In this document: one piece after another, positions 3,330-20,655 of the stretch
Layout of the letters: every line of letters starts with the position of its first letter
How positions within the stretch are numbered: position 1 is the stretch's first letter
IMG/VR virus record: IMGVR_UViG_3300030109_005351
Span: 1 to 20,655 of that record
DNA: 20,655 nucleotides
Strand: one strand, 5' to 3'
Origin: a virus
The notes under the pieces: model-generated
Databases searched by the model: none
Told to the model about the DNA's origin: nothing
Seen by the model: the letters and a program-made list of their open reading frames with translations, nothing else
Translations under genes and position numbers: made by a program

Positions 3330-3566
3330 ATGGTTGAAGAATATATTAAATTGGCGAAAATTCAAATGCAGCTAAAGTTTGGAAATAAACGACAAGCTGT
3401 AGATTATCTTTTTCAGGCTGTTTCATTGTTGCAAGATGAAATCAAAGAAAAAGATTTGGAAATCAAAACTTTGAAGTCTGCAGCCAAGAAGCCTGCGGCT
3501 AAAAAGCCTGCAGCCAAGAAGCCTGCAGCCAAGAAGCCTGCAGCCAAAAAACCAGCTAAGAAATAA
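3330..3566 (+). CDS. Coiled-coil protein with Lys/Ala/Pro repeat tail
   Basis: 78 residues with a good SD (GTGAGGTAAAC before ATG). Residues 1-48 are predicted helical and amphipathic (LAKIQMQLKFG, LLQDEIKEKDLEIK), so they could form a coiled coil. Residues about 51-78 are an almost pure array of AAKKP pentapeptides, about five copies, ending PAKK. Such tails occur in histone H1-like and AlgP-like bacterial proteins and bind nucleic acid or anionic polymers non-specifically. The tail is basic and disordered. A role in DNA binding, or in binding the anionic cell wall within the lysis cassette, is possible; neither is shown. The repeat is encoded by 15-bp near-identical DNA units and so may vary in copy number. 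Confidence 0.7.
   Translation: MVEEYIKLAKIQMQLKFGNKRQAVDYLFQAVSLLQDEIKEKDLEIKTLKSAAKKPAAKKPAAKKPAAKKPAAKKPAKK
3486..3561 (+). repeat. Tandem 15-bp repeat encoding AAKKP
   Basis: About five tandem units resembling GCAGCCAAGAAGCCT, differing only at synonymous third positions (for example GCGGCTAAAAAGCCT), lie at the end of the 3330-3566 gene. The unit is a multiple of three, so gain or loss of copies keeps the frame. Near-identity at the DNA level suggests recent expansion by slippage. Confidence 0.85.
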
Positions 3567-8068: not shown

Positions 8069-8887
8069 TTAATCCTCCAATAACGATTCTTGTTTATCGG
8101 TTTGTTGGACCAACTCATCAAGTTGATCAGACAAAACATTCATCGTGTTCATTTCTGGAACGTCGTTCATTTCTACGACCTGAAGATCTTCGGTAGATGC
8201 ATCTTGCATACCATCATGCTCATATGCACTAGTGGTCGCATCGTCCATCGAAACGATGCCGCGAGCAAACGCATACCGAAGTCCAGTCTTCAGCGCCATT
8301 TCAATCGGCCACTGACCCCACGGAGATTGGTTCTTGTTTCGCTTGTAGGCGTCTGAGTTTGCTCGACGCTTCTCAATGTCGGCCTTGCGGATTACGACAA
8401 AGTCTTTGCTGCCATCTTTGTAGTGTGCGACCACATACACCGCTATGAGCGTATCCCATGACTGGTCAGCAGAAAGGTCAGGTACGTGCTCAAGCTTTGG
8501 CTCTGTACCTTCGATGACGTGAAACTCATCACTTTCGAATACAGCCTTTGTGCGTAGGCGCACGCCGCTTCGAGCGGCCAGCTTGGCGAACCCTCGGTGC
8601 GACACTTGCCACTGAAGACTCTTGCCTCTTGGCAGCAAATAAACATCTGGTAGCGGACCACCGGGCATTAGTCCCGTCATCGCTGAAAGTGCCACAGCTT
8701 GTGCCACTGATACTGGGTCACAGCCGTACAGTCGGTCGTTGGTTTGTGCGGCCTGTCTAAAGGCAAGCGCCACACGGCCTGCGGCCTTGGCGCCTTCTTC
8801 CGTACCTGCCATTGCTTGGAGGAAGTCCGATGCTTTAGATTCGACAACGTTTCGAAACTGGTGTGCTGGGTGAAGTGCATTGCTCAT
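8069..8887 (-). CDS. recT: RecT-family single-strand annealing protein
   Basis: 272 residues. The RecT family signature is visible: DPVSVAQAVALSAMTGLMPGG (57-77), an LPRGKSLQWQVSHRGFAKLA segment (85-104), and SPWGQWPIEMALKTGLR (188-204), the conserved M-x2-KT-x2-R helix. The C-terminal 60 residues are acidic and low-complexity, also common in the family. The protein coats single-stranded DNA and anneals it to complementary strands, acting with a 5'-3' exonuclease; the YqaJ-type gene immediately upstream is the expected partner. Its ATG overlaps the stop of that gene (ATGA), and the SD ACAGGAGAACAAAA encodes the last residues of the nuclease. Confidence 0.9.
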   Translation of the reverse strand: MSNALHPAHQFRNVVESKASDFLQAMAGTEEGAKAAGRVALAFRQAAQTNDRLYGCDPVSVAQAVALSAMTGLMPGGPLPDVYLLPRGKSLQWQVSHRGFAKLAARSGVRLRTKAVFESDEFHVIEGTEPKLEHVPDLSADQSWDTLIAVYVVAHYKDGSKDFVVIRKADIEKRRANSDAYKRNKNQSPWGQWPIEMALKTGLRYAFARGIVSMDDATTSAYEHDGMQDASTEDLQVVEMNDVPEMNTMNVLSDQLDELVQQTDKQESLLED

Positions 8888-8903
8888 TTTTGTTCTCCTG
8901 TGT
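8880..8903 (-). repeat. 24-bp junction repeat, copy A (recT start)
   Basis: These 24 bases, spanning the SD, ATG and first two codons of recT, are identical to 18806-18829. The element encodes TGEQK-stop in the upstream gene, then starts the next gene within ATGA. Confidence 0.85.
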
Positions 8904-9798
8904 ATTGAAATCTGAATGTTCGTGTTGGTTCGCCAATCTTTAAGTAATTTTTAGCGAGGTTTGGGTGATCGGCTTCAAATGATGCGCGATCGAATCTGCT
9001 CCGTGGCTTGCTCTGTGACCACGTCGCTACACCACTAATACCATACGCGGTGCCTATTTCTTCTTTTATTCTGTTTTCAAGCATCCGTTTTTTCTCGTCC
9101 AACTCTGCGCATTGTGCTCGAATCTGCCTCAATTGTTCCGCGATTTCAAGATGCGACTCTGATGGCTCAATAAATGTTTTAGACTCCTGCTCAAACATTT
9201 TTGCCAGTGATTTGGAGCATGAGGTTGAGCCGTCCACTTCTGGTGGTTTACCCTGACGTATATGTCGATCATACCAATCCCTGACATAGTCCATCATTTT
9301 CGATTCAACCGATTTGTCTCGATGTATTACAAACGAACGGTACTCATCGTTCATCGTAGCAAAAGCGGCCAAGTCGCATCGGTCATCGTTGGTAACAGCC
9401 ATTTGCCAAATGCACTGTGTAGCATAGTACGGCGGAACCCCGACTCCACCAGAAACGCCCCACCTGTGATCAAACTTTCGAGTAGATTTTATTTCAAGAA
9501 GCCAGCGTTTATCGTCTGTCGTAACGAAAAAATCAGGACGAGCGTGCATCCAAGACTCAGGACCGATGATTGGATCGGCCTCGTATTCTGGTCCTTTTTC
9601 GATTTGAACATTGTTGAGGTGTGCATAATGGGCGCCAATTGCAGGCTCCAGAATGTGACCCCTTTGCGTAGCCGCTGATGATGCGCTTTCGCTGAGTCCG
9701 TGTGCTCTTGCCCACACGTCCCAGGGGCTGCTCCAGGGCGAAAGCCCCAAAATTGCTCCAATGCTACTGCTTCCGATTGTTGGTAGATTTTCATTCAT
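8884..9798 (-). CDS. YqaJ-type viral recombinase / exonuclease
   Basis: 304 residues. The N-terminus has the YqaJ pattern SSSIGAILGLSPWSSPWDVW (10-29), then RGHILEPAIGAHYA (47-59) with Glu51, WMHARPDFFV (83-92) with Asp89, and LLEIKST (100-106) with Glu102 and Lys104. Together these form a PD-(D/E)xK-like nuclease core as in lambda exonuclease. The C-terminal third (about 205-260) is coiled-coil-like (LEIAEQLRQIRAQCAELDEKKRML). It degrades one strand from DNA ends to give the single strand bound by RecT, encoded next in the operon with a four-base overlap. It is the first gene left of the divergent promoter region at 9799-9887. The SD is TACAGGAAAGACAAACA. Confidence 0.85.
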   Translation of the reverse strand: MNENLPTIGSSSIGAILGLSPWSSPWDVWARAHGLSESASSAATQRGHILEPAIGAHYAHLNNVQIEKGPEYEADPIIGPESWMHARPDFFVTTDDKRWLLEIKSTRKFDHRWGVSGGVGVPPYYATQCIWQMAVTNDDRCDLAAFATMNDEYRSFVIHRDKSVESKMMDYVRDWYDRHIRQGKPPEVDGSTSCSKSLAKMFEQESKTFIEPSESHLEIAEQLRQIRAQCAELDEKKRMLENRIKEEIGTAYGISGVATWSQSKPRSRFDRASFEADHPNLAKNYLKIGEPTRTFRFQYTGEQK

Positions 9799-10331: not shown

Positions 10332-11702
10332 TTAGGAACATCCAAGCTTGGTATAGAGTCTGTGTCGCTTTCGAGCCAGTCCACGCATTGGTCCACTATC
10401 ATCAACGCAATCAATAACGATCGGATTCTTTTTCTGTGGGTGCGGTCGCATGACTCGACCGATTCTTTGCTGGATTCGACCCATAGCTTTCGTCGGAGTC
10501 GTGAGCACAACTGTGTCGAGTGATGGCAAATCAAGCCCTTCATCTGCGACCGTTGTGGCACAAACAACTTGAATTTCTCGATCATTCGCACGTTGTAATA
10601 CCTGTGTTCGTTGTTTCTTTGTCATTCTGCCTACCAATGGTTCAGCTACGATGCCGTGAGATTGGAGCATATCAGCCATCAGGATGCAATGGTCAACTCG
10701 GTCTGAAAGAACCAAGATCTGCCTTCCTTCCCGACATGCGTCCAGTATTCTTTTGAGAATCTTTTCATTGCGTCCATCATCGGTAGTCATTTTTGTAATC
10801 AGCTTAGACCAGTCTACACGGTTTGGTGGACCTGTATAGTCAGTGAATAGCCATTCAATTTCAGGAGCGACTACATGACCGGAGATTGTAAGCTGTTCAT
10901 TCGTGATCTCATACACGGGTGATCCGAAGTGCCACCAAAGTATGGAGGTCAATCCGTCTGGTCGCTCTGGTGTTGCTGTAAGCCCAAGCCTGTATCTGGC
11001 GGGCATACAAAACATAACTGAGCAGAAGGTGTGTGCTGGTACGTGGTGTGCCTCATCTACGATGCAGAGACCAAACTGTCGCCCGAATGTGTATCGTTCT
11101 GTGAATGACATTCGTTCGAGTGTTTGGAAGGTTGCGACAACAATGCGACCAGAGTCATCCTTCTTGCCTGCGCCGTACTGTGTAGCCTTTTCGTTTAGCA
11201 TCGATTCGATGCGGTTCATCCACTGAACAGCAAGATCGTTGGTGTGAACCAACACCAGCGCCTTTGTGTCATACTCGGTCATTGCCGCAACACCGATTGC
11301 CGTTTTACCGGCACCGCATGGTGCAATCACAACACCCTCTCCGCCATTGGACCTCCAACAGTCCAGGGCCTTGAGTTGGTATTCTCTCAGAGAAAAACCT
11401 TTCGAAAGTTTCAAGGTCTGTGCGACAGGGTCGGTTCGCACATCAACAATTTTACCAAGATCCATTTGAGCAGCAGCCTTACGTGGAACCGCAAGACCAC
11501 CGCCCCAAGGGTGATCATATGGAATACGGTGACAAGCATTGATGTGCTTGTCCGGAATCGGCACGTATCGTCCCTGCTTACGCATACCCATTGCCATTTG
11601 GTACTCAGGGTTTGCAATCTCAAATCTACTTAGAATCGCTTTTTCATTCTCATATCCAGGCGCGAGAAACACCCCGCCACCCAACGCTACTTTATTCATC
11701 AT
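10332..11702 (-). CDS. SF2 DEAH-box helicase (XPB/UvsW-like)
   Basis: 456 residues with all main SF2 motifs in order: FSLREYQLKAL (103-113), Walker A APCGAGKTAIG (127-137), motif Ia LVHTNDLAVQW (151-161), VATFQTLE (189-196), DEAH in IVDEAHHV (214-221), LTATPERPDG (241-250), motif V CATTVADEGLDLPSL (381-395), and motif VI QRIGRVMRP (412-420). The order and the ADEGLD/QRIGRVMR forms match XPB/RadD/UvsW-type helicases that remodel forks and recombination intermediates. The N-terminal 100 residues contain no known domain. It is coupled to the VirE-like gene by a four-base overlap (ATGA) and probably works with it and the primase in genome replication. Confidence 0.9.
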   Translation of the reverse strand: MMNKVALGGGVFLAPGYENEKAILSRFEIANPEYQMAMGMRKQGRYVPIPDKHINACHRIPYDHPWGGGLAVPRKAAAQMDLGKIVDVRTDPVAQTLKLSKGFSLREYQLKALDCWRSNGGEGVVIAPCGAGKTAIGVAAMTEYDTKALVLVHTNDLAVQWMNRIESMLNEKATQYGAGKKDDSGRIVVATFQTLERMSFTERYTFGRQFGLCIVDEAHHVPAHTFCSVMFCMPARYRLGLTATPERPDGLTSILWWHFGSPVYEITNEQLTISGHVVAPEIEWLFTDYTGPPNRVDWSKLITKMTTDDGRNEKILKRILDACREGRQILVLSDRVDHCILMADMLQSHGIVAEPLVGRMTKKQRTQVLQRANDREIQVVCATTVADEGLDLPSLDTVVLTTPTKAMGRIQQRIGRVMRPHPQKKNPIVIDCVDDSGPMRGLARKRHRLYTKLGCS

Positions 11703-13033
11703 GCTTCCTTACTTTGTACTTTCAGTATTTCATTTTTTGCCCAAACATACTTTCGTTTTCCTCCGAGCATCATCCGTTTCTTTTCATAATTTAACTCACG
11801 CAATATCTCTGAGATTCTCATTTCATCCCGTCGATTCATGCGACCTCTCTCAATCTTCAACCCTTCTTCCATTACCATTGTCATTGTTACATAGCCCTGC
11901 TGAACCATCAGGAAGTTGCTGATTGGGTCCATCCAGGGGTCATCTTGCCTGTAAATCTTGCTTGAATCGTGACGCTTAATGTCCATTTCTTTATCCAAAT
12001 ACCAAGTTTCGCCTGCTTTAAAAGCAACGATTGCTTCTGCCCAAAGTTGATCTCGATTCTCTTGAACCCAATGAAGGTTCACCTCGTTGACCCTAATCGG
12101 CCAATACCGACGTGATCCGGTCATGTCATTAATAAACTGTGATTCATTTGTTGTTCCAGCGAACACAACGTGACGCTTAATCGTGATTGCATGGCGCCCA
12201 TAGGCGGGGCGAAAGTTATCCTCTTGCGCGCTCAAGAATGCTTTTGTAGCGCTGTTCGCTGAACGACGAACAGAGTCCAACTCTGCAACCTCATAAATCC
12301 ACGCTCGGGCAATCTGGCTGTAGGAGTTTGCGGAGCCGATATCCAGCGGTGTGTCTGCAAAGTATTCTTCTGTAGCAAGCTTTCTGAACAAGGTGCTCTT
12401 ACCGGCGCCCTGATCTCCTGCCAGGATCAATACGCAGTCTGCCTTGCAGCCGGGTTTATATGCGCGCGCAATGGCTTGGATCAACCACTTTTCAGCCATC
12501 TTCCGGTTCAGGTCCGTGTCGTCGCAGTCTGTTGCCTCGATGACCCATGAGGCCAAGCGTGGGGTTCCATCCCAGTGAAGTGAATCCAACCACTCCAGTA
12601 GTGGGTTGCGTTTGTTTTCTTCGCCTATCAACTGAACGGTGGCACTAACGGCGGCATCAGAGTATTCCAGCCCGTATGCTCTCGACACCCAAAGGGCGAT
12701 GCGCGTGTCGTCTGTATCCCTGTAGTCGCGCTCATCTATTTGAAGTGTGTTGGTAAAGCTGTTCAACCACACCCGGCCACGCCATCTACGGTCCCTTCGC
12801 AAGATGATGTATAGGTTGTTCTTGTTTTTACGAAACCTGCCGGATGGGTCTCCATTACGATCCATGTATTGATCCAGAAGATCGGTAATGCGGGCATCGG
12901 TTTCATTTTCGGGAAGTGGAGCCTCAGTAGGTTCTTGGTTTGGCTGATTGATGCAGTTTTCATTTTCAGCAATGCTCAGTAGATCACCGAGCCTTCTTTG
13001 TCCAGCGGCGAGGACTTCATCCAAATCAGCCAT
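11699..13033 (-). CDS. VirE-family (virulence-associated E-like) ATPase
   Basis: 444 residues from ATG 13033; the adjacent ATG 13036 is an alternative, and GGAG lies upstream at good spacing. The frame is open to 13132, but that part lies inside the primase gene. The core shows DYRDTDDTRIALWVSRAYG, then NPLLEWLDSLHWDGTPRL (about 143-159), Walker A LAGDQGAGKSTL (204-215), Walker B-like WIYEVAELD (245-253), VVFAGTTNESQFI (289-301) and GSRRYWPI. This is the pattern of VirE-domain proteins, P-loop ATPases related to SF3-type replicative helicases. In phages and islands they follow a primase, as here. It probably unwinds DNA at the fork. The C-terminal region may be a winged-helix DNA-binding part (RISEILRELNYEKKRM). 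Confidence 0.85.
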   Translation of the reverse strand: MADLDEVLAAGQRRLGDLLSIAENENCINQPNQEPTEAPLPENETDARITDLLDQYMDRNGDPSGRFRKNKNNLYIILRRDRRWRGRVWLNSFTNTLQIDERDYRDTDDTRIALWVSRAYGLEYSDAAVSATVQLIGEENKRNPLLEWLDSLHWDGTPRLASWVIEATDCDDTDLNRKMAEKWLIQAIARAYKPGCKADCVLILAGDQGAGKSTLFRKLATEEYFADTPLDIGSANSYSQIARAWIYEVAELDSVRRSANSATKAFLSAQEDNFRPAYGRHAITIKRHVVFAGTTNESQFINDMTGSRRYWPIRVNEVNLHWVQENRDQLWAEAIVAFKAGETWYLDKEMDIKRHDSSKIYRQDDPWMDPISNFLMVQQGYVTMTMVMEEGLKIERGRMNRRDEMRISEILRELNYEKKRMMLGGKRKYVWAKNEILKVQSKEA

Positions 13034-14555: not shown

Positions 14556-14596
14556 AATAAAAAGTGGGGTCACCGCCCCGCTGAAACGGTGACCCC
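14556..14596 (-). terminator. Intrinsic terminator/attenuator between 14603 and 14555 genes
   Basis: A perfect 10-bp stem, GGGGTCACCG (14566-14575) with CGGTGACCCC (14587-14596), has an 11-base loop and is followed on the - strand by ACTTTTTATT. It begins six bases after the stop of the 14603-15097 gene. The T-run reaches to the base before the next ATG, so it separates the first three-to-four genes of the operon from the HTH and replication genes. Read-through or antitermination would be needed for the latter, unless they have their own promoter, which I do not see. Confidence 0.8.
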
Positions 14597-16056: not shown

Positions 16057-16085
16057 ATATTACTTGGTTCACCTAAGTATGTCAA
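16057..16085 (-). promoter_or_regulatory. Strong sigma70-like leftward promoter with operator-like dyad
   Basis: On the - strand TTGACA (16085-16080) and TAATAT (16062-16057) are separated by exactly 17 bases, the best promoter match found in the window. Transcription would start near 16050, about 20 bases before the start of the 15751-16032 gene. Within the spacer, 16062-16078 reads as a 17-bp imperfect dyad (ACTTGGTTCACCTAAGT, six of eight pairs), a possible repressor site. Confidence 0.75.
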
Positions 16086-16094
16086 GTATGATCT

Positions 16095-16106
16095 TCACTC
16101 ACCTCC
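16095..16106 (-). repeat. Orphan gene-junction element
   Basis: The sequence GGAGGTGAGTGA is present on the - strand exactly as at the junctions of the accessory genes, but is followed by AGATC instead of an ATG. It lies between the stop of the 16111-16581 gene and the promoter. It may mark a lost gene that once stood here. Confidence 0.5.
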
Positions 16107-16110
16107 TTGT

Positions 16111-16581
16111 TTATCTTTCGTCCTCACCGGAACCGTGCCACATCGCGTGGAACACGCGCGCTGATTCCTCGGCTGTGTAGTCTGCGCCTGCCATGCTTTC
16201 CCAAGTCAACGGGTCGTCGTGTATCTCAAAACCTCTGCTGTTTCTGCGAAACCTGCCTGGATCTTCAAAATGCCACACCGTTTCGCACGCCTCCATTTCA
16301 GCGCGTCGATGCAATCGCTTTCGGCTAATCGTCACTGATGGCACGTCAAGAGCCTTGCTGCCATTGGCGTGCCTTGAAAACTGTTTCAGTGCCTTGCCGA
16401 GATCCGGATTGTACTTTGGCTTCACTGTCGGAACAAACAACAGATTCCACGCGTCAATGTCACTGTCACCGTCACCGTCAAGCCAGCGTTCTCTTGGCTC
16501 CCGGCAATCCTTTATCGGTGATACACCCGCGCACCCTGCAGAACGCTGTATCGCAATCAGTAGATCAATCTTGTATGGCAT
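16111..16581 (-). CDS. Unknown accessory protein, 156 residues
   Basis: Not recognised. ATG 16581 has a full SD (AAAGGAGGTGAGTG) and overlaps the upstream stop (TGATG). The protein is Asp- and Arg-rich with DGDGDSDIDAWNLLFVP (36-52) and an acidic, aromatic C-terminus (DPLTWESMAGADYTAEES, ending GEDER). No membrane segment or catalytic motif. It is the last gene of the accessory array. A class II junction sequence follows its stop but has no ATG (16095-16106); the strong promoter for the next gene lies just beyond. Confidence 0.6.
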   Translation of the reverse strand: MPYKIDLLIAIQRSAGCAGVSPIKDCREPRERWLDGDGDSDIDAWNLLFVPTVKPKYNPDLGKALKQFSRHANGSKALDVPSVTISRKRLHRRAEMEACETVWHFEDPGRFRRNSRGFEIHDDPLTWESMAGADYTAEESARVFHAMWHGSGEDER

Positions 16582-16712
16582 CACTCACCTCCTTTAAGAA
16601 TATCAAATGAAGTATTAGAACCCGGCTCCCAGCCGGTTTGGTACTGTTTGGCCTTCACGTTCTCTTTCAAGTTGCAGACGATGCTTTGACCGTATGTATC
16701 TGCTCCAGTCAC
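16581..16712 (-). CDS. Very small unknown protein, 43 residues
   Basis: A frame with good coding appearance (GADTYGQSIVCNLKENVKAK, ending ILKGGE) runs into the GGAGGTGAGTGATG junction. GTG 16712 is the proposed start because it overlaps the upstream stop by four bases (GTGA), giving coupled translation; there is no separate SD. The frame is open further upstream to about position 16780 but without ATG. The final GGE is encoded by the SD of the next gene. Function unknown. Confidence 0.5.
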   Translation of the reverse strand: MTGADTYGQSIVCNLKENVKAKQYQTGWEPGSNTSFDILKGGE

Positions 16713-16951
16713 GTGGTGTACCACTTCACCAATAAGACAGCCTGTTTTGGCAGCCGCCTTATGGTACTTGCTGGGTTGTCAACTCTACTCCGAAAACCAC
16801 TCATCCGTTGGGCAGTATCGCATTGCCAAAACACAACTTTCGCTGTCCACGACTTACACCACTCCCAATGGTCACGTCTCCCTACCCGCCTTCGATAGAC
16901 GGTTTCAGGTGCGGCGGGTAACTCCGCTCCGTGCTGGTCCCAATACTTCAT
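16709..16951 (-). CDS. Small basic unknown protein, 80 residues
   Basis: ATG 16951 lies one base after the stop of an 18-residue frame (TAA-A-ATG), with GGTGAGAG upstream as SD. The protein is basic and Trp-rich (YRRRVGRRDHWEWCKSW, then FRSRVDNPASTIRRLPKQ). It overlaps the start of the next gene by four bases. The other two frames carry stops here or only very short pieces, so this reading is favoured, but a frameshifted older gene cannot be ruled out. Function not recognised. Confidence 0.45.
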   Translation of the reverse strand: MKYWDQHGAELPAAPETVYRRRVGRRDHWEWCKSWTAKVVFWQCDTAQRMSGFRSRVDNPASTIRRLPKQAVLLVKWYTT

Positions 16952-16952
16952 T

Positions 16953-17009
16953 TTATACTCTCACCCACCCGCATGAACATCGGTACTTTACTTCATTTCT
17001 GTGACTCAT
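16953..17009 (-). CDS. 18-residue peptide with CxC motif
   Basis: ATG 17009 has the perfect junction SD GGAGGTGAGTG. The product MSHRNEVKYRCSCGWVRV carries a CSCGW motif like half of a zinc ribbon. It stops at TAA 16953, one base before the next ATG. It may be a leader peptide, a truncated zinc-ribbon gene, or the first piece of a frameshifted gene with the 80-residue frame. Confidence 0.4.
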   Translation of the reverse strand: MSHRNEVKYRCSCGWVRV

Positions 17010-17012
17010 CAC

Positions 17013-17657
17013 TCACCTCCAGTCCACGCATTCGTTCCCAGAGTCCTCGTATGCATTACCATCGCAGTAGCCGTCAGCAAGCGCTTGACGCAGGCGAACC
17101 AACTCATCGATGGTTTCTTCGATTTGCTTTTCGTATTGCTGCCACCCATACTTTTTTCCTCTGAGAATCCTGTGGCCACCCTTCTGGTTCTCCACCTCGT
17201 CCCCTGGGTCTATGATGACAACAACCCTGCCTCCTTCGTCTCCGATGTTTTGACGATGCCTGACGTAAGTGACTCCGTTCCGATAGCACTCATCAAGGTG
17301 CTTGATTTTGTTCTGCACCATTCCCAGAACCCAGCGAGCCATTGATATGTGGCCGTTGATGCTCATCTTGTTCTTGCTGTTGGGGGGGTGGAGATCCTTT
17401 CTCGATGAGTCAATCATGGTCAAGTAGAACCAAGACATGGAGTGCTTGCACTCAACCAAGCCCGTTGTCCTCGATGCATCCTTGTCGGACCACCTTCTCT
17501 TGTCCCAGTGGGTCGTCTTTAGAATCTTGTTGTTAGTCTCATCACAGACTAGCTGGATTACCGCAGGCCGCTTAAAGACCGTTGTGAACCGGTTATCCAG
17601 TGTGATGTACTCGGCTGTATCTACGAACTCTCCGCGAAGGTTTGGTTGTCTATCCAT
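17013..17657 (-). CDS. Unknown accessory protein, 214 residues
   Basis: Not recognised. ATG 17657 follows GGATGGTGAGTG, a variant of the junction element that also encodes the upstream stop. The protein begins with a basic/polar region (FTTVFKRPAVIQLVCDET), has a Trp/Lys-rich part (THWDKRRWSDKDASR), then GHISMARWVLGMVQNKIKHLD (105-125), a VVVIIDPGDE strand (about 148-157), and a long charged C-terminal helix (QYEKQIEETIDELVRLRQAL). No nuclease or ATPase motif recognised. It is the largest gene, jointly with 17870-18514, in the array. Confidence 0.6.
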   Translation of the reverse strand: MDRQPNLRGEFVDTAEYITLDNRFTTVFKRPAVIQLVCDETNNKILKTTHWDKRRWSDKDASRTTGLVECKHSMSWFYLTMIDSSRKDLHPPNSKNKMSINGHISMARWVLGMVQNKIKHLDECYRNGVTYVRHRQNIGDEGGRVVVIIDPGDEVENQKGGHRILRGKKYGWQQYEKQIEETIDELVRLRQALADGYCDGNAYEDSGNECVDWR

Positions 17658-17660
17658 CAC

Positions 17661-17870
17661 TCACCATCCTTTCTTGTCAATCGTCTTACCGCGATACGTC
17701 AATCGGAATGAGTACAGCCCCCTTGCGTTTCTTATCGCTTCGGCTCCACTTTCAAAATCATCGTACTTCGCAACAGTACGCCACTTGCTGTAAGTGTGTT
17801 GCTTGCCGCCCATTGGGCGCCTTACCATTCCGGTGTAGTCTCTCCTTTGCAATAGATACTTCGCAGCCAT
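17661..17870 (-). CDS. Small basic unknown protein, 69 residues
   Basis: ATG 17870 has the SD GGAGAGGTGAGTG and overlaps the upstream stop (TGATG). The protein is basic and beta-like (YLLQRRDYTGMVRRPMGG, then LYSFRLTYRGKTIDKKGW) with a central acidic helix (DDFESGAEAIRNA). It ends KKGW because the TGGTGA of the next junction supplies its last codon and stop. Function unknown; the size and fold could suit an inhibitor or DNA mimic/binder, which is speculation. Confidence 0.6.
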   Translation of the reverse strand: MAAKYLLQRRDYTGMVRRPMGGKQHTYSKWRTVAKYDDFESGAEAIRNARGLYSFRLTYRGKTIDKKGW

Positions 17871-18514
17871 CACTCACCTCTCCTTGCTGTTGGGTGCTTC
17901 ACTTCATGCCATTGAGCAAGCTGCTTGATAAACTGAATACCAATATCGAATCGTTCAAGTTGCAGTTTATTTGCCCAGCCGATCCAACTTGTTTCAGGTG
18001 AATCAGCGCGATCCTCAAAGATCAACTCAAAGGCAACCAAGAGCCACCAAAGACCATTGGCACGCCTTCTTGTTAGTCTTGGCTTGTGGGTCTTTGCTCG
18101 CGAGTACATTACCGATTCATTTATGAATGGATAGGTAAAGCGCGTAGACGTGCTTTGTGGTACTCCGCAACCTTGAATGTATTCAAAGTCTGATTCGCAT
18201 ACTGTGGTTGCGATTCTGTATTCAGCGTGAATGTGGTTGCGAACGTAGAACCAGTCCATCAGATTTGAAAGATACTTCATTCCTTGCCTCATGTCGTCTT
18301 TGATTGAAGCATCAACTTCGTACAGCGGGTCAAGATAATAAGTCGCCCCGCACTCTCTCTCCCACAACCATTTGAGCCAAAACAAAGAATCAATCGATCG
18401 AATGGTCAACTCAGGTTTGCCAAAGCAGTATCGGACGGATTTGTTTGCATCTATGTGCAGCTTCCATCGTTTATGTCGATCAATCAAAGACTCTTTCTTC
18501 AGTGCCTTATTCAT
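17870..18514 (-). CDS. Unknown accessory protein, 214 residues
   Basis: Not recognised. ATG 18514 has the SD GGGAGGTGAGTG and overlaps the upstream stop. The sequence is rich in aromatic residues (SLFWLKWLWERECGATYY, LMDWFYVRNHIHAEYR, GLWWLLVAFELIFED). The two most hydrophobic stretches, about residues 44-51 and 154-165, are short and flanked by charges, so it is more likely a globular helical protein than a membrane protein. It ends RRGE, encoded by the next junction. No catalytic motif seen. Confidence 0.6.
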   Translation of the reverse strand: MNKALKKESLIDRHKRWKLHIDANKSVRYCFGKPELTIRSIDSLFWLKWLWERECGATYYLDPLYEVDASIKDDMRQGMKYLSNLMDWFYVRNHIHAEYRIATTVCESDFEYIQGCGVPQSTSTRFTYPFINESVMYSRAKTHKPRLTRRRANGLWWLLVAFELIFEDRADSPETSWIGWANKLQLERFDIGIQFIKQLAQWHEVKHPTARRGE

Positions 18515-18813
18515 CACTCACCTCCCTCATCAGTGGCGGCTGCGTTTTCTTTCAGCCAAGCAGACAGCCAAGCAGACCTGTCTTTCATCTGCTGCTTGTG
18601 AATCTCGCGAGGCTCCTGGAAGTCTCTTTTGATTACTGCGATCACATGCTCGATTGTTTGCTCTCCAATGAACGCCTTTCGCTTGTCGCAGTCGGTTTCT
18701 TCCATGCGGTCAAGTCCGTAGGCAAGAAGCTGTTCAATGGCTCCAACGTCAACCAATGTTTTGATTGGGTTTGGGAAGCAGTTTGTAAGTGTGTTGAGTG
18801 TATCTTTGCTCAT
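18514..18813 (-). CDS. Small acidic helical unknown protein, 99 residues
   Basis: ATG 18813 follows ACACAGGAGAACAAAA; this leader and the first codons are identical to those of the recT gene over 24 bp. The protein is mostly helical (TKNLVDVG-like start region, IEQLLAYGLDRMEET, GEQTIEHVIAVIKRDF, WLSAWLKENAA) and acidic, ending TDEGGE, where GGE is encoded by the next junction element. Function unknown. It opens a run of genes joined by GGAGGTGAGTGATG. Confidence 0.6.
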   Translation of the reverse strand: MSKDTLNTLTNCFPNPIKTLVDVGAIEQLLAYGLDRMEETDCDKRKAFIGEQTIEHVIAVIKRDFQEPREIHKQQMKDRSAWLSAWLKENAAATDEGGE

Positions 18814-18829
18814 TTTTGTTCTCCTGTGT
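18806..18829 (-). repeat. 24-bp junction repeat, copy B (18813 gene start)
   Basis: Perfect copy of 8880-8903, about 10 kb away, upstream of an unrelated gene. A third copy at 19623-19642 differs by one base in the SD-start core. Shared start regions of unrelated genes suggest a mobile or recombinogenic start-associated sequence. Confidence 0.85.
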
Positions 18830-18851
18830 TCGTCAAGTATGCCATAAAAAA

Positions 18852-19151
18852 CTAAATGTCACGGTCAAATTCTGTCCGCAACTGCTCTTGATAAAGGTCG
18901 AGCAACGTGTCAACCTCCCAATCTTCTAACTCCACAGGAACACGAGCGCCCCTGTCTTGTCGGTGTGCTGACAGAACCTCAATGTGGGGGCCGAGCCCCA
19001 CGCTGGGCTCCGCAGGAAGGAACCGACCAAACACCTCGATGATGTGTTCAATGACAACCTCACCTGTGTCTTCGTCTTCAACCTCTCGAACCAACTCAAC
19101 TGAAATGTTGCGCGGGCTCACCGGTAATCTAAACTGCTCTGCTTTGTTCAT
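18852..19151 (-). CDS. Small acidic unknown protein, 99 residues
   Basis: ATG 19151 is chosen over a TTG at 19199 because it has GGAG at good spacing (CTGGAGCAGAAG). The protein shows a beta-rich middle (SVELVREVEDEDTGEVVIEHIIEVFG) and an acidic helical C-terminus (LEDWEVDTLLDLYQEQLRTEFD). The many acidic residues could mimic DNA or bind a basic protein; this is only a possibility. It is separated by 38 bases from the next gene and by about 70 from the previous one. Confidence 0.55.
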   Translation of the reverse strand: MNKAEQFRLPVSPRNISVELVREVEDEDTGEVVIEHIIEVFGRFLPAEPSVGLGPHIEVLSAHRQDRGARVPVELEDWEVDTLLDLYQEQLRTEFDRDI

Positions 19152-19218
19152 CTTCTGCTCCAGTGTGTTGAGGTAGGGTAGGTATGACTTTACCGGCAAG
19201 TAAAGCCATAGTCAACCG

Positions 19219-19431
19219 CTACTTGAGAATAAAGTCACCAATGGCTTTGGCGGCAATCGAATCTACGGCGAAGTCAGATGCGCGCGCTTGCTGCAACCCA
19301 TCTTTCTTCGTCGCGACTACGATTGTGTTCCCGCCTCTGCCGTTGCCCATGTAAACGAATGGGCCTGTACCCCACCCCTTCACTGTAGACTTCAGTGGTG
19401 TCCCAACTGGTGTCTCTTTGTTTGGTGTCAT
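19219..19431 (-). CDS. Small unknown protein, 70 residues
   Basis: ATG 19431 overlaps the previous stop by four bases (ATGA). The protein is Gly/Lys-rich at the N-terminus (KSTVKGWGTGPFVYMGNGRGG), then has NTIVVATKKDGLQQARASDF and a C-terminal helix (SIAAKAIGDFILK). No family recognised. The compact beta-hairpin appearance and coupling to its neighbour support a real gene. Confidence 0.55.
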   Translation of the reverse strand: MTPNKETPVGTPLKSTVKGWGTGPFVYMGNGRGGNTIVVATKKDGLQQARASDFAVDSIAAKAIGDFILK

Positions 19432-19628
19432 GCTTGACTGTCCTCTGCCTCTGCCCTTTCGAGAACCTCGTTGATTGCTTCAAGCTGCTGCTGGAACGCA
19501 AGACGAGATTCTTCAGGAAACGATTGAACGTTCTCTGCGTTGCCGATCGCAACCGTGGGCCGTGGTTTAGACCACTGCTGTAAGAGTTTCCGCATGTTCT
19601 TTAGTTCTTTGATTTCTTGCTCAGTCAT
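19428..19628 (-). CDS. Small coiled-coil unknown protein, 66 residues
   Basis: ATG 19628 has the SD ACACAGGAGAGCAAAA, one base different from the recT leader, and overlaps the previous stop (ATGA). Two helices (TEQEIKELKNMRKLLQQW and SRLAFQQQLEAINEVLERAEA) are separated by a short loop with KPRPTVAIGN, giving a helical-hairpin look. Function unknown. Confidence 0.6.
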   Translation of the reverse strand: MTEQEIKELKNMRKLLQQWSKPRPTVAIGNAENVQSFPEESRLAFQQQLEAINEVLERAEAEDSQA

Positions 19629-19837
19629 TTTTGCTCTCCTGTGTTTGCTCTGCGAACCACGCTATCGTTCAGGCGAATCCATTCACTTTGTTGTGGTTCA
19701 TCCATTGGGGGGATTGTCTCTGGCACCGGCTTTACCCACTCTGTAAACGGGTGACGGTGCTGAAGTTTGGAAGGGTCGTGCGGGCCAAGGGCCAAGTCGA
19801 AACTTGGGAAGGCTGCTCTGTTTGGTAAGCGAGTCAT
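19625..19837 (-). CDS. Small Pro-rich unknown protein, 70 residues
   Basis: ATG 19837 has the SD ACACAGGAGAATGT. The protein is rich in Pro and His (PNRAAFPSFDLALGPHDP, VKPVPETIPPMDEP) with no clear long helix. It ends NTGEQK, the same last five residues as the YqaJ-type protein (TGEQK), because both C-termini are encoded by the junction element of the next gene. Function unknown. Confidence 0.55.
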   Translation of the reverse strand: MTRLPNRAAFPSFDLALGPHDPSKLQHRHPFTEWVKPVPETIPPMDEPQQSEWIRLNDSVVRRANTGEQK

Positions 19838-19977
19838 ACATTCTCCTGTGTTGTAGGCTCAGTGGACAGAACCGGCGCTTGGCTCTGCGTGGACATGGGT
19901 TTCAATAAAAGGTCTACTTGGGTGAGTAATCCAGGCCCCTCACCCTTACCGGCACTATGACTTAGACCATGATGCAC
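19834..19977 (-). CDS. Possible 47-residue ORF ahead of 19837 gene
   Basis: A frame from GTG 19977 runs to a TGA that overlaps the next ATG by four bases, as real neighbours do here. The product (GKGEGPGLLTQVDLLLKP, then QAPVLSTEPTTQENV) has plausible composition. However, the SD abuts the GTG directly, which is poor, and the region can fold (GGGTGAG 19920-19926 with CTCACCC 19939-19945). The frame could be chance. Confidence 0.3.
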   Translation of the reverse strand: MHHGLSHSAGKGEGPGLLTQVDLLLKPMSTQSQAPVLSTEPTTQENV

Positions 19978-20039
19978 CTCCTATAGATGTTGCGTGGCGT
20001 CCCACGCTTCACCCTGTTGATTGTTGTTTAGTGTTCGGT
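19838..20039. other. Structured low-coding stretch
   Basis: Apart from the doubtful 47-residue frame, no gene is seen. It holds a 7-bp hairpin (19920-19926 with 19939-19945), an enclosing GGTCTA/TAGACC pair (about 19911-19916 with 19962-19967), and a perfect 6-bp hairpin with a four-base loop (19992-19997 with 20002-20007). A two-codon frame ATG-GTC-TAA (19970-19962) follows a strong AGGAGG SD. There is no U-tract, so the hairpins do not form a classical terminator. It may be an RNA regulatory leader. Confidence 0.45.
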
Positions 20040-20303
20040 TTAGGCAAAGTGGTTGTAGTGTTGCCATACGTCGTTGAAGCTGTGTGGTAGTGCGCGACGA
20101 ATAATGTCTTCAGCTTTCCACATCGCTGGTTCGTCGTTGTAGTCCCAGTGCCATTCCCAATCGTAATCAAAGTCGGTGTGAGTTTTGTTGATATGGTTGT
20201 ACAGGAATGCATCGAGTTGATTGAGCCATTCTTCGAAGGATAGGCCCGTGCTTTTGGTCGGTTGAGTTTTGTACTCTATGAAGGCGCTGTATGATGATGC
20301 CAT
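20040..20303 (-). CDS. Small acidic, aromatic unknown protein, 87 residues
   Basis: ATG 20303 is preferred for its ACACAGAGATCATT leader, a weak form of the ACAGGAGA element. ATG 20339 would add 12 residues but has no SD. The protein contains LSFEEWLNQLDAFLYNHI and a striking Asp/Trp/Tyr-rich stretch (DFDYDWEWHWDYNDEPAMW), then EDIIRRALPHSFNDVWQHY. Such an acidic-aromatic surface suggests binding to a basic protein or mimicry of DNA, which is speculation. The frame continues upstream into the 20380-20604 gene, but that part is a shadow. Confidence 0.55.
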   Translation of the reverse strand: MASSYSAFIEYKTQPTKSTGLSFEEWLNQLDAFLYNHINKTHTDFDYDWEWHWDYNDEPAMWKAEDIIRRALPHSFNDVWQHYNHFA

Positions 20304-20379
20304 AATGATCTCTGTGTTGGTGAAGCGGTAGTGCTTCATTAAGGAATACGGAGTCAGGTGGATAGGCCCGACATGGGGA

Positions 20380-20604
20380 TCACTCACCTCCCTTGGCTTT
20401 GGCGATGGCTTCATTGGCACGAATCCAAATCGGCAAGTGCAGACAGTCATTCTTGACTTGAAAACGCATGATGTCTTCCAGCACCTCCAGCAAGTCAGGT
20501 GCCGCCTTGTACAAGCGGTAGCCATCGTCACCCAAGGCGAACCGTTGCTGACGTTCGGTGCGTTCATCCAGTTGCTTCGCGTATCGTTCGAGTATTCCGT
20601 TCAT
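20380..20604 (-). CDS. Small helical unknown protein, 74 residues
   Basis: ATG 20604 has the SD GGAGGTGAGTG and overlaps the upstream stop (TGATG). The protein is helical and charged (ILERYAKQLDERTERQQRF, APDLLEVLEDIMRFQ) and ends KAKGGE. The segment DGYRLYKAAPDLLEVLEDI is similar to a motif common in phage early proteins (Y-x-LYxAAPDLL-x-AL), also found in eukaryote-like ead/Ea22-type phage proteins. I regard the relation as likely but the function is unknown. Its stop lies in a junction element that is not followed by ATG. Confidence 0.6.
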   Translation of the reverse strand: MNGILERYAKQLDERTERQQRFALGDDGYRLYKAAPDLLEVLEDIMRFQVKNDCLHLPIWIRANEAIAKAKGGE

Positions 20605-20655
20605 CACTCACCTCCAGTGCGTTCTTGTTGCGGCCACCATGATGGTGACTCAGAT
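20604..20655 (-). CDS. C-terminal end of a further accessory gene
   Basis: An open frame enters from the right edge and ends ESPSWWPQQERTGGE with TGA overlapping the next ATG (TGATG). The GGE ending and overlap match the other class II junctions, so a coding gene beyond the window is likely. Nothing else can be said about it. Confidence 0.55.
   Translation of the reverse strand, partial: SESPSWWPQQERTGGE

Follow-up and report, generated by a model that had tools for sequence, protein, structure and literature searches.

The junction motif of the accessory array

The window, a 20,655-base viral contig from IMG/VR (IMGVR_UViG_3300030109_005351), carries core genes for VapE-like, helicase, YqaJ and RecT proteins and, between 16.1 and 20.6 kb, an array of small accessory genes on the same strand. 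The gene junctions of this array are marked by a 14-mer, GGAGGTGAGTGATG, in which a Shine-Dalgarno sequence is joined to a TGATG stop/start overlap. This motif occurs exactly four times (16579, 17007, 18512 and 20602) and five more times with one to three changes; all nine copies are on the array's coding strand (minus), and the genes for the VapE-like, helicase, YqaJ and RecT proteins have none. Comparison with related uncultured phages indicates that single genes are exchanged precisely at these junctions.

Allowing up to three mismatches, the whole window holds 12 matches to the 14-mer against 1.66 expected, and shuffled versions gave a maximum of 6 and reached 12 in 0 of 100 shuffles. With at most one mismatch the minus strand holds seven matches; the plus strand has none, nor does the reversed pattern, used as a control, give any. 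An earlier sequence-only reading of the window had placed the four exact copies at these positions, variants at 17655 and 17868, and two further copies lacking the ATG. All of these coordinates check: the variants have two changes (17655) and one change (17868), and the last two copies span 16093-16106 and 20378-20391.

As RNA, the GGAGGTGA part of the motif pairs with the tail of 16S rRNA as a near-perfect Shine-Dalgarno sequence. The 14-mer holds stop codons in two frames and a start in the third, and as a result most genes ending there gain a tail of GGE or WR. In the window the upstream gene ends in GGE or RGE, at the TGA of TGATG, at 18512, 17868, 16579 and 20380, in GW at 17655, and in WR, at the TGA of GGAGGTGA, at 17007. 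The proposal that each unit supplies an almost full anti-Shine-Dalgarno complement and the end of the upstream gene agrees with what is seen at these junctions. That each unit also supplies the next ATG holds for the six copies whose ATG starts an open reading frame (ORF), although the ORF opened at 17007 has only 18 codons. The copies at 20378 and 16093 lack the ATG, and the latter starts no gene but closes the array at a fixed 3' position.

Across 120 exact sites with distinct context, conservation is restricted to the 14-mer with a weak A or AA before it and G or A after it; the flanks are not conserved, and there is no extra conserved block or inverted repeat around the motif. One base, between GGAGGTGA and TGATG, is fixed neither by ribosome pairing nor by TGATG; it is G at 111 sites and A at 7 and is never C or T, although T would lengthen the pairing with 16S rRNA. 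No consistent single-strand fold was found at four window junctions, nor any Rfam match. When the sequence between two successive motifs is considered, the whole interval is filled by one gene in 84 of 116 cases, so that the arrays are mostly scar-free, and in 79 of the 116 one gene ends in the TGA of TGATG.

A search with the VapE-like protein yielded 80 loci, several of them on contigs that had previously been recovered by a blind scan with the 14-mer. Among these loci there are up to 10 exact copies per locus, all on the VapE strand and all upstream of VapE, with 0 on the other strand, and in the long relatives (records up to 74.6 kb) every copy falls within one region of the genome and on one strand. 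The relative G018, whose VapE is 48% identical, has 0 copies. The exact 14-mer stands at 111 of 439 array starts, whereas the core has it at about 1 start in 449. The spacers of core GGAGG sites differ from one another, and most TGATG overlaps in the core go with other ribosome sites, such as AAGGAAGCATGATG. The core starts thus rule out a general ribosome site of the family, present equally at core genes, which the sequence-only reading had named as the finding that would refute it. No relative of VapE was found in GTDB genomes, and thus no host or prophage is identified; with the closest cultured phages, core proteins are in common at no more than about 27-37% identity.

Two further observations concern starts and copy number. 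A second recurrent start context, ACACAGGAGA(A/G)CAAAAATG or similar, is present in the window at 18813, 19628 and 8887 (minus strand) and in relatives, at both array and core starts. Upstream of c7 in relative L159, the array has 10 exact junctions at one locus (14 on the whole 54.9-kb contig) and three copies of the c19 family, which suggests duplication or repeated capture.

The peptide tails follow the motif. Genes whose stop lies in the motif TGATG end in GE in 154 of 176 cases, compared to 9 of 475 other array genes, and within one gene family the tail is WWPEGGE with the motif and WWPGEQS without it. The C-terminal GGE or GE is a by-product of the junction, as the sequence-only reading had supposed, and short C-terminal tails of this kind can come from a junction and not from protein function.

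Gene exchange at the motif

Among the relatives, gene order is conserved in the downstream core and shuffled in the upstream array. The window and relatives L131, L132 and L133, whose VapE proteins are 97% identical, have in common the c51-c54 block and everything from c10 onward, with different cassettes between, and BLAST homology blocks among these four have their limits at the motif, beginning with its first base and stopping with its last. This boundary analysis was extended to 44 arrays. Cassette c95, 93% identical between L131 and L132, stands to one side of the c51-c54 block in the first phage and to the other side in the second, and its flanks agree at 25-32%. Single cassettes are 82-93% identical from motif to motif, with flanks near chance level and unrelated neighbours.

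At 264 motif sites, site pairs were classed by flank identity, which builds part of the contrast into the counts: homology covers the downstream gene only in 163, the upstream gene only in 120 and both in 29, and 8 are intermediate. Neither the abruptness of the step nor the scarcity of intermediates is a product of this classing. The identity profile steps abruptly at the first or last motif base, and at least 69 junction exchanges are needed to account for the arrays.

Relatives L140 and L229 provide a clean empty/filled site. They are 98-99% identical on both sides of a point at which L229 has two extra cassettes (482 + 14 bp), placed exactly at one L140 motif, and one cassette is replaced between two other motif copies. 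Whether single genes are gained or lost precisely between copies had been posed as the check on the sequence-only reading, and in this pair they are gained, lost and replaced there; together with the restriction to the array, the pair supports the modular plug-in of small genes.

Adjacency gives a similar picture. Where both genes of a junction are present elsewhere, they are still neighbours in 12% of comparisons for the exact motif and 24% for near-motif junctions (1-2 changes), versus 73% for non-motif overlapping junctions, 76% for short-gap and 60% for long-gap junctions (permutation p at most 5e-5 to 1e-4, uncorrected for phage relatedness). The same short sequence stands at the borders of exchanged modules in several genomes. 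Assembly chimeras were considered as a candidate source of these arrangements. A 14-bp repeat is shorter than the usual assembler k-mers, and several arrays recur in separate contigs (L164/L166, L155/L156 and L188/L189).

The cassettes are also present on a different replication and packaging backbone, which goes beyond what the sequence-only reading foresaw. G024 (66.7 kb) encodes a P22-like portal together with a DNA polymerase of family A and a DUF927 protein. Nothing in it matches the VapE-like, RecT or terminase family of the present comparison, yet it has two arrays, one with 5 exact copies and the other, on the opposite strand, with 3. Two of the G024 cassettes have counterparts in L138 and L168 at 89% DNA identity from one motif to the next, while the flanks reach 20-40%, and contig L223/L228 has both cassette families side by side. 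A few other proteins are common to G024 and the window family at 79-92% identity, and the two backbones are therefore in genetic contact. In the G024 locus L211 (12253-13344 and 13292-14275, minus strand), an AAA_24 protein just under the Pfam cut-off adjoins a motif-opened 327-aa protein that, by eye, resembles a PD-(D/E)XK nuclease; we take the AAA_24 family to include Sak4-type recombinases. Loci L212 (G022) and L213 (G025) each have three exact motif copies and several genes ending in GGE, with no VapE or RecT match and no cassettes in common with the window family. Single exact copies of the 14-mer are found in many unrelated viral contigs.

Few cassettes resemble known protein families. 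Pfam searches with 104 cassette representatives matched five families, with one member each: an MT-A70 methyltransferase, a pyrimidine-dimer glycosylase of the T4 endonuclease V type, and three zinc-binding domains. Anti-phage defence was tried and rejected as the content of the cassettes; PADLOC matched methyltransferase models only.

Within the window, the individual cassettes have distinct histories among the relatives (Table 1). Cassette c19 and both of its flanking motifs are 94% identical in L131, and among the 12 non-redundant relatives that have c19, it has 14 different neighbours on the left and 16 on the right. The block upstream of the 18512 junction is the c51-c54 block of L131, L132 and L133, and homology among these stops at the corresponding motif. 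The c43 protein is 94% identical in L131, where the end of the array follows directly. For c81 a direct scan found no relatives, and clustering added two more distant homologues. Homology to L131, L132 and L133 resumes at the first base of the 3' anchor or no more than 5 bases from it. The 18-codon ORF (16953-17020 with its motif, minus strand) matches the start of the L131 c95 cassette over 36 nt at 92%, motif included, and then diverges; it is probably the remnant of a partly replaced cassette, with the breakpoint inside the gene.

Table 1. Features of the window, listed from the accessory array to the core
Feature	Coordinates	Strand	Remark
Exact junction GGAGGTGAGTGATG	20602..20615	minus	Starts 74-aa cassette c19 (20604-20380)
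Cassette c19, 74 aa	20380..20604	minus	Ends ...KAKGGE; PHROG 1273-like
Junction copy without ATG, GGAGGTGAGTGATC	20378..20391	minus	Closes c19, opens no gene; probably a scar
Weak ninth copy GGAGGTGCATCATG, three changes	19968..19981	minus	Pattern match; may be a chance match
Exact junction	18512..18525	minus	Ends 99-aa c54 (18813-18514, ...DEGGE), starts 214-aa gene (18514-17870)
Cassette, 214 aa	17870..18514	minus	Ends ...RRGE; no homologue among relatives
Junction variant AGAGGTGAGTGATG, one change	17868..17881	minus	Starts 69-aa cassette
Cassette, 69 aa	17661..17870	minus	Ends ...KKGW; ORF
Junction variant GATGGTGAGTGATG, two changes	17655..17668	minus	Starts cassette c43
Cassette c43, 214 aa	17013..17657	minus	Ends ...VDWR at the TGA inside GGAGGTGA
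Exact junction after c43	17007..17020	minus	Opens 18-codon ORF (17009-16953)
Exact junction	16579..16592	minus	Ends 43-47-aa ORF (...KGGE), starts 156-aa c81
Cassette c81, 156 aa	16111..16581	minus	Homologues in L159, L171
Array 3' anchor, motif copy without ATG, GGAGGTGAGTGAAG	16093..16106	minus	
Sigma-70-like promoter, TTGACA-17-TAATAT	16057..16085	minus	Just past the anchor
VapE-like primase/helicase	11699..13033	minus	Core; query for relatives; without motif
YqaJ-type exonuclease	8884..9798	minus	Core; candidate recombination partner
RecT single-strand annealing protein	8069..8887	minus	Core; candidate recombinase for exchange

The promoter past the anchor is followed by an CATACAGGAGAATGTAATG start, and its position and the start context recur in many relatives. 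Elsewhere in the window, a strong terminator-like hairpin of 14 pairs followed by ACTTTTTATT lies after a 164-aa core gene (14566-14596, minus strand), and a small protein with a repeated KKPAA tail is encoded at 3330-3566 (plus strand).

Mechanism and rival explanations

On the evidence of comparative genomics, genes are exchanged at the motif, and the precision of the breakpoints together with the adjacency contrast (12% versus 73%) suggests homologous recombination there. We consider it likely that the 14-mer is an adapter that couples translation between neighbouring genes and at the same time offers a short stretch of homology at which single genes can be exchanged, probably by RecT and YqaJ. 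Because the upstream gene stops where the next one starts, translation would be coupled along the array, and TGATG termination-reinitiation is established in bacteria (PMC6728339). The same sequence at every junction would provide short shared homology, and a gene between two copies could be inserted, deleted or exchanged without a scar, in frame and with its own ribosome site. The most likely route would be annealing-type homologous recombination during co-infection by the phage RecT and YqaJ proteins, which are both present in all 56 relatives extending far enough. Rad52-like phage recombinases are known to promote exchange at short or diverged homologies (PMC3945230). Selection for expression would then preserve the motif. 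Because the reported minimal pairing length exceeds the motif, exchange there is probably infrequent per event and maintained by selection, and longer homology would take over once two phages have neighbours in common. The predicted outcome is a pool of small genes, mostly of no known function, that is shuffled among related phages and at least one other backbone. A broader proposal, for and against which we see about equal weight, is that one short sequence acts as recombination site, stop, ribosome site and start, a standard cassette format kept by selection for both functions, and that backbones draw on a common pool without a site-specific recombinase.

Several observations weigh against the adapter explanation. 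Homology blocks also end at non-motif gene starts, at 2.1 per site compared to 4.0 per motif site and 0.6 per random position, and the motif is thus not needed for exchange. Phage relatedness makes the counts partly dependent. The minimal efficient pairing length is 23-27 nt for Red-beta and 31-34 nt for RecA (PMC3945230), against 14-17 nt for the motif, and G024 has no RecT or ERF match. Finally, an optimal Shine-Dalgarno sequence with TGATG could alone account for 13 of the 14 bases. That the motif is almost wholly explained as an optimal ribosome site with a stop/start overlap, and that breakpoints fall at other gene starts too, would favour an account by selection only, in which illegitimate recombination, the usual account of phage mosaicism (PMC3029335), brings genes together, only precise junctions survive because a strong Shine-Dalgarno sequence with a TGATG overlap serves expression best, and the motif is convergent or hitch-hiking with no part in recombination. 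We regard this account as unlikely, although it deserves to be kept in mind. Other overlapping junctions in the same arrays retain their neighbours far more often than motif junctions do, core TGATG starts use other ribosome sites, the spacer base is never the T that would extend 16S pairing, and the arrays are mostly scar-free.

The remaining alternatives fare worse. If a protein or small RNA of phage or host bound the motif as a regulatory site and so kept its sequence identical, the shuffling would be incidental. The start-associated sequences (SAS) of cluster K mycobacteriophages offer a parallel in placement, repetition and non-structural confinement, and a regulatory role has been proposed for them (PMC3203893, PMC12699233). 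However, the ribosome site and the stop/start overlap account for nearly every base of the 14-mer, with no further conserved block or inverted repeat, and homology stops sharply at the motif, making a regulatory site quite improbable. An integron-like, site-specific cassette system with a dedicated recombinase acting on the motif would fit the single-gene cassettes, the fixed 3' anchor and the exact junctions, all of which are as in integron arrays. Yet searches of 13 long records, the longest 74.6 kb, gave no tyrosine or serine recombinase domain (PF00589 was absent from all 13, and the control was positive in 14 of 14 genomes). The site, 14 nt long and asymmetric, has no arms, and four window junctions have no consistent fold; we consider such a system very improbable. 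As for an ordinary Shine-Dalgarno consensus of the family with no special tie to exchange, GGAGGTGA is indeed the canonical anti-Shine-Dalgarno complement, and the single exact copies in unrelated viral contigs would be in keeping with it. This explanation is refuted by the difference between core and array starts and is further opposed by the boundary evidence (cassette identity, step profile, adjacency and the L140/L229 pair), and we give it practically no credence.

Comparison with known systems

Integron arrays are made up of cassettes that hold one gene each, mostly without a promoter; the cassettes are shuffled and have a common junction sequence. The arrays of the window family are alike in being shuffled single-gene cassettes with a common junction sequence. 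Unlike integrons, they come with no integrase that we could find and no attC-like structured site, and their junctions are in-frame overlaps that are predicted to be translationally coupled.

The SAS, and the extended form ESAS, come closer in appearance. They are present in 11-19 copies per genome and have a Shine-Dalgarno core (PMC3203893, PMC12699233), and ESAS adds 17-bp inverted repeats upstream of about half of the sites. Phage Mordin has a similar 26-bp repeat (PMC4611695). Like SAS, the 14-mer is a short asymmetric repeat by gene starts, in one orientation and confined to non-structural genes. In contrast to SAS, it extends over the start codon and the stop of the upstream gene, and the SAS consensus, GGGATAGGAGCCC, has 0 matches within two mismatches in the window. 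No ESAS-type inverted repeats are present at the 14-mer sites, where the upstream columns show weak A residues only, and four cluster K stretches hold 0 copies of the 14-mer. At the SAS sites of four cluster K phages, a small yardstick, there are 7 one-sided versus 5 intermediate pairs, and hence no comparably sharp boundary. Exchange of genes at SAS is not among the proposals in the parts of the reports consulted (PMC3203893, PMC12699233).

The motif resembles TGATG coupling in its stop/start overlap and in having the Shine-Dalgarno sequence inside the upstream gene. TGATG coupling, however, is a general arrangement of gene pairs with varied sequences (PMC6728339), whereas here the exact sequence is common to the junctions and marks the boundaries of exchange.

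There has been a long dispute on gene-by-gene phage mosaicism, in which homologous exchange at boundary sequences is set against random joining followed by selection. Short conserved boundary sequences have been proposed as recombination linkers but are reported to be unidentifiable at most mosaic boundaries (PMC3029335). The 14-mer is like them in that a short sequence common to gene borders marks the switch of homology between mosaic modules. It is unlike them in being one fixed sequence that occurs at many junctions per genome and in dozens of phages, and that doubles as ribosome site, stop and start. In this family dozens of natural junctions have a defined sequence, empty/filled sites are clean and controls are to hand within the same arrays, so that the question of mosaicism becomes directly testable. 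The motif also marks the ends of accessory genes and so provides a handle for finding such genes.

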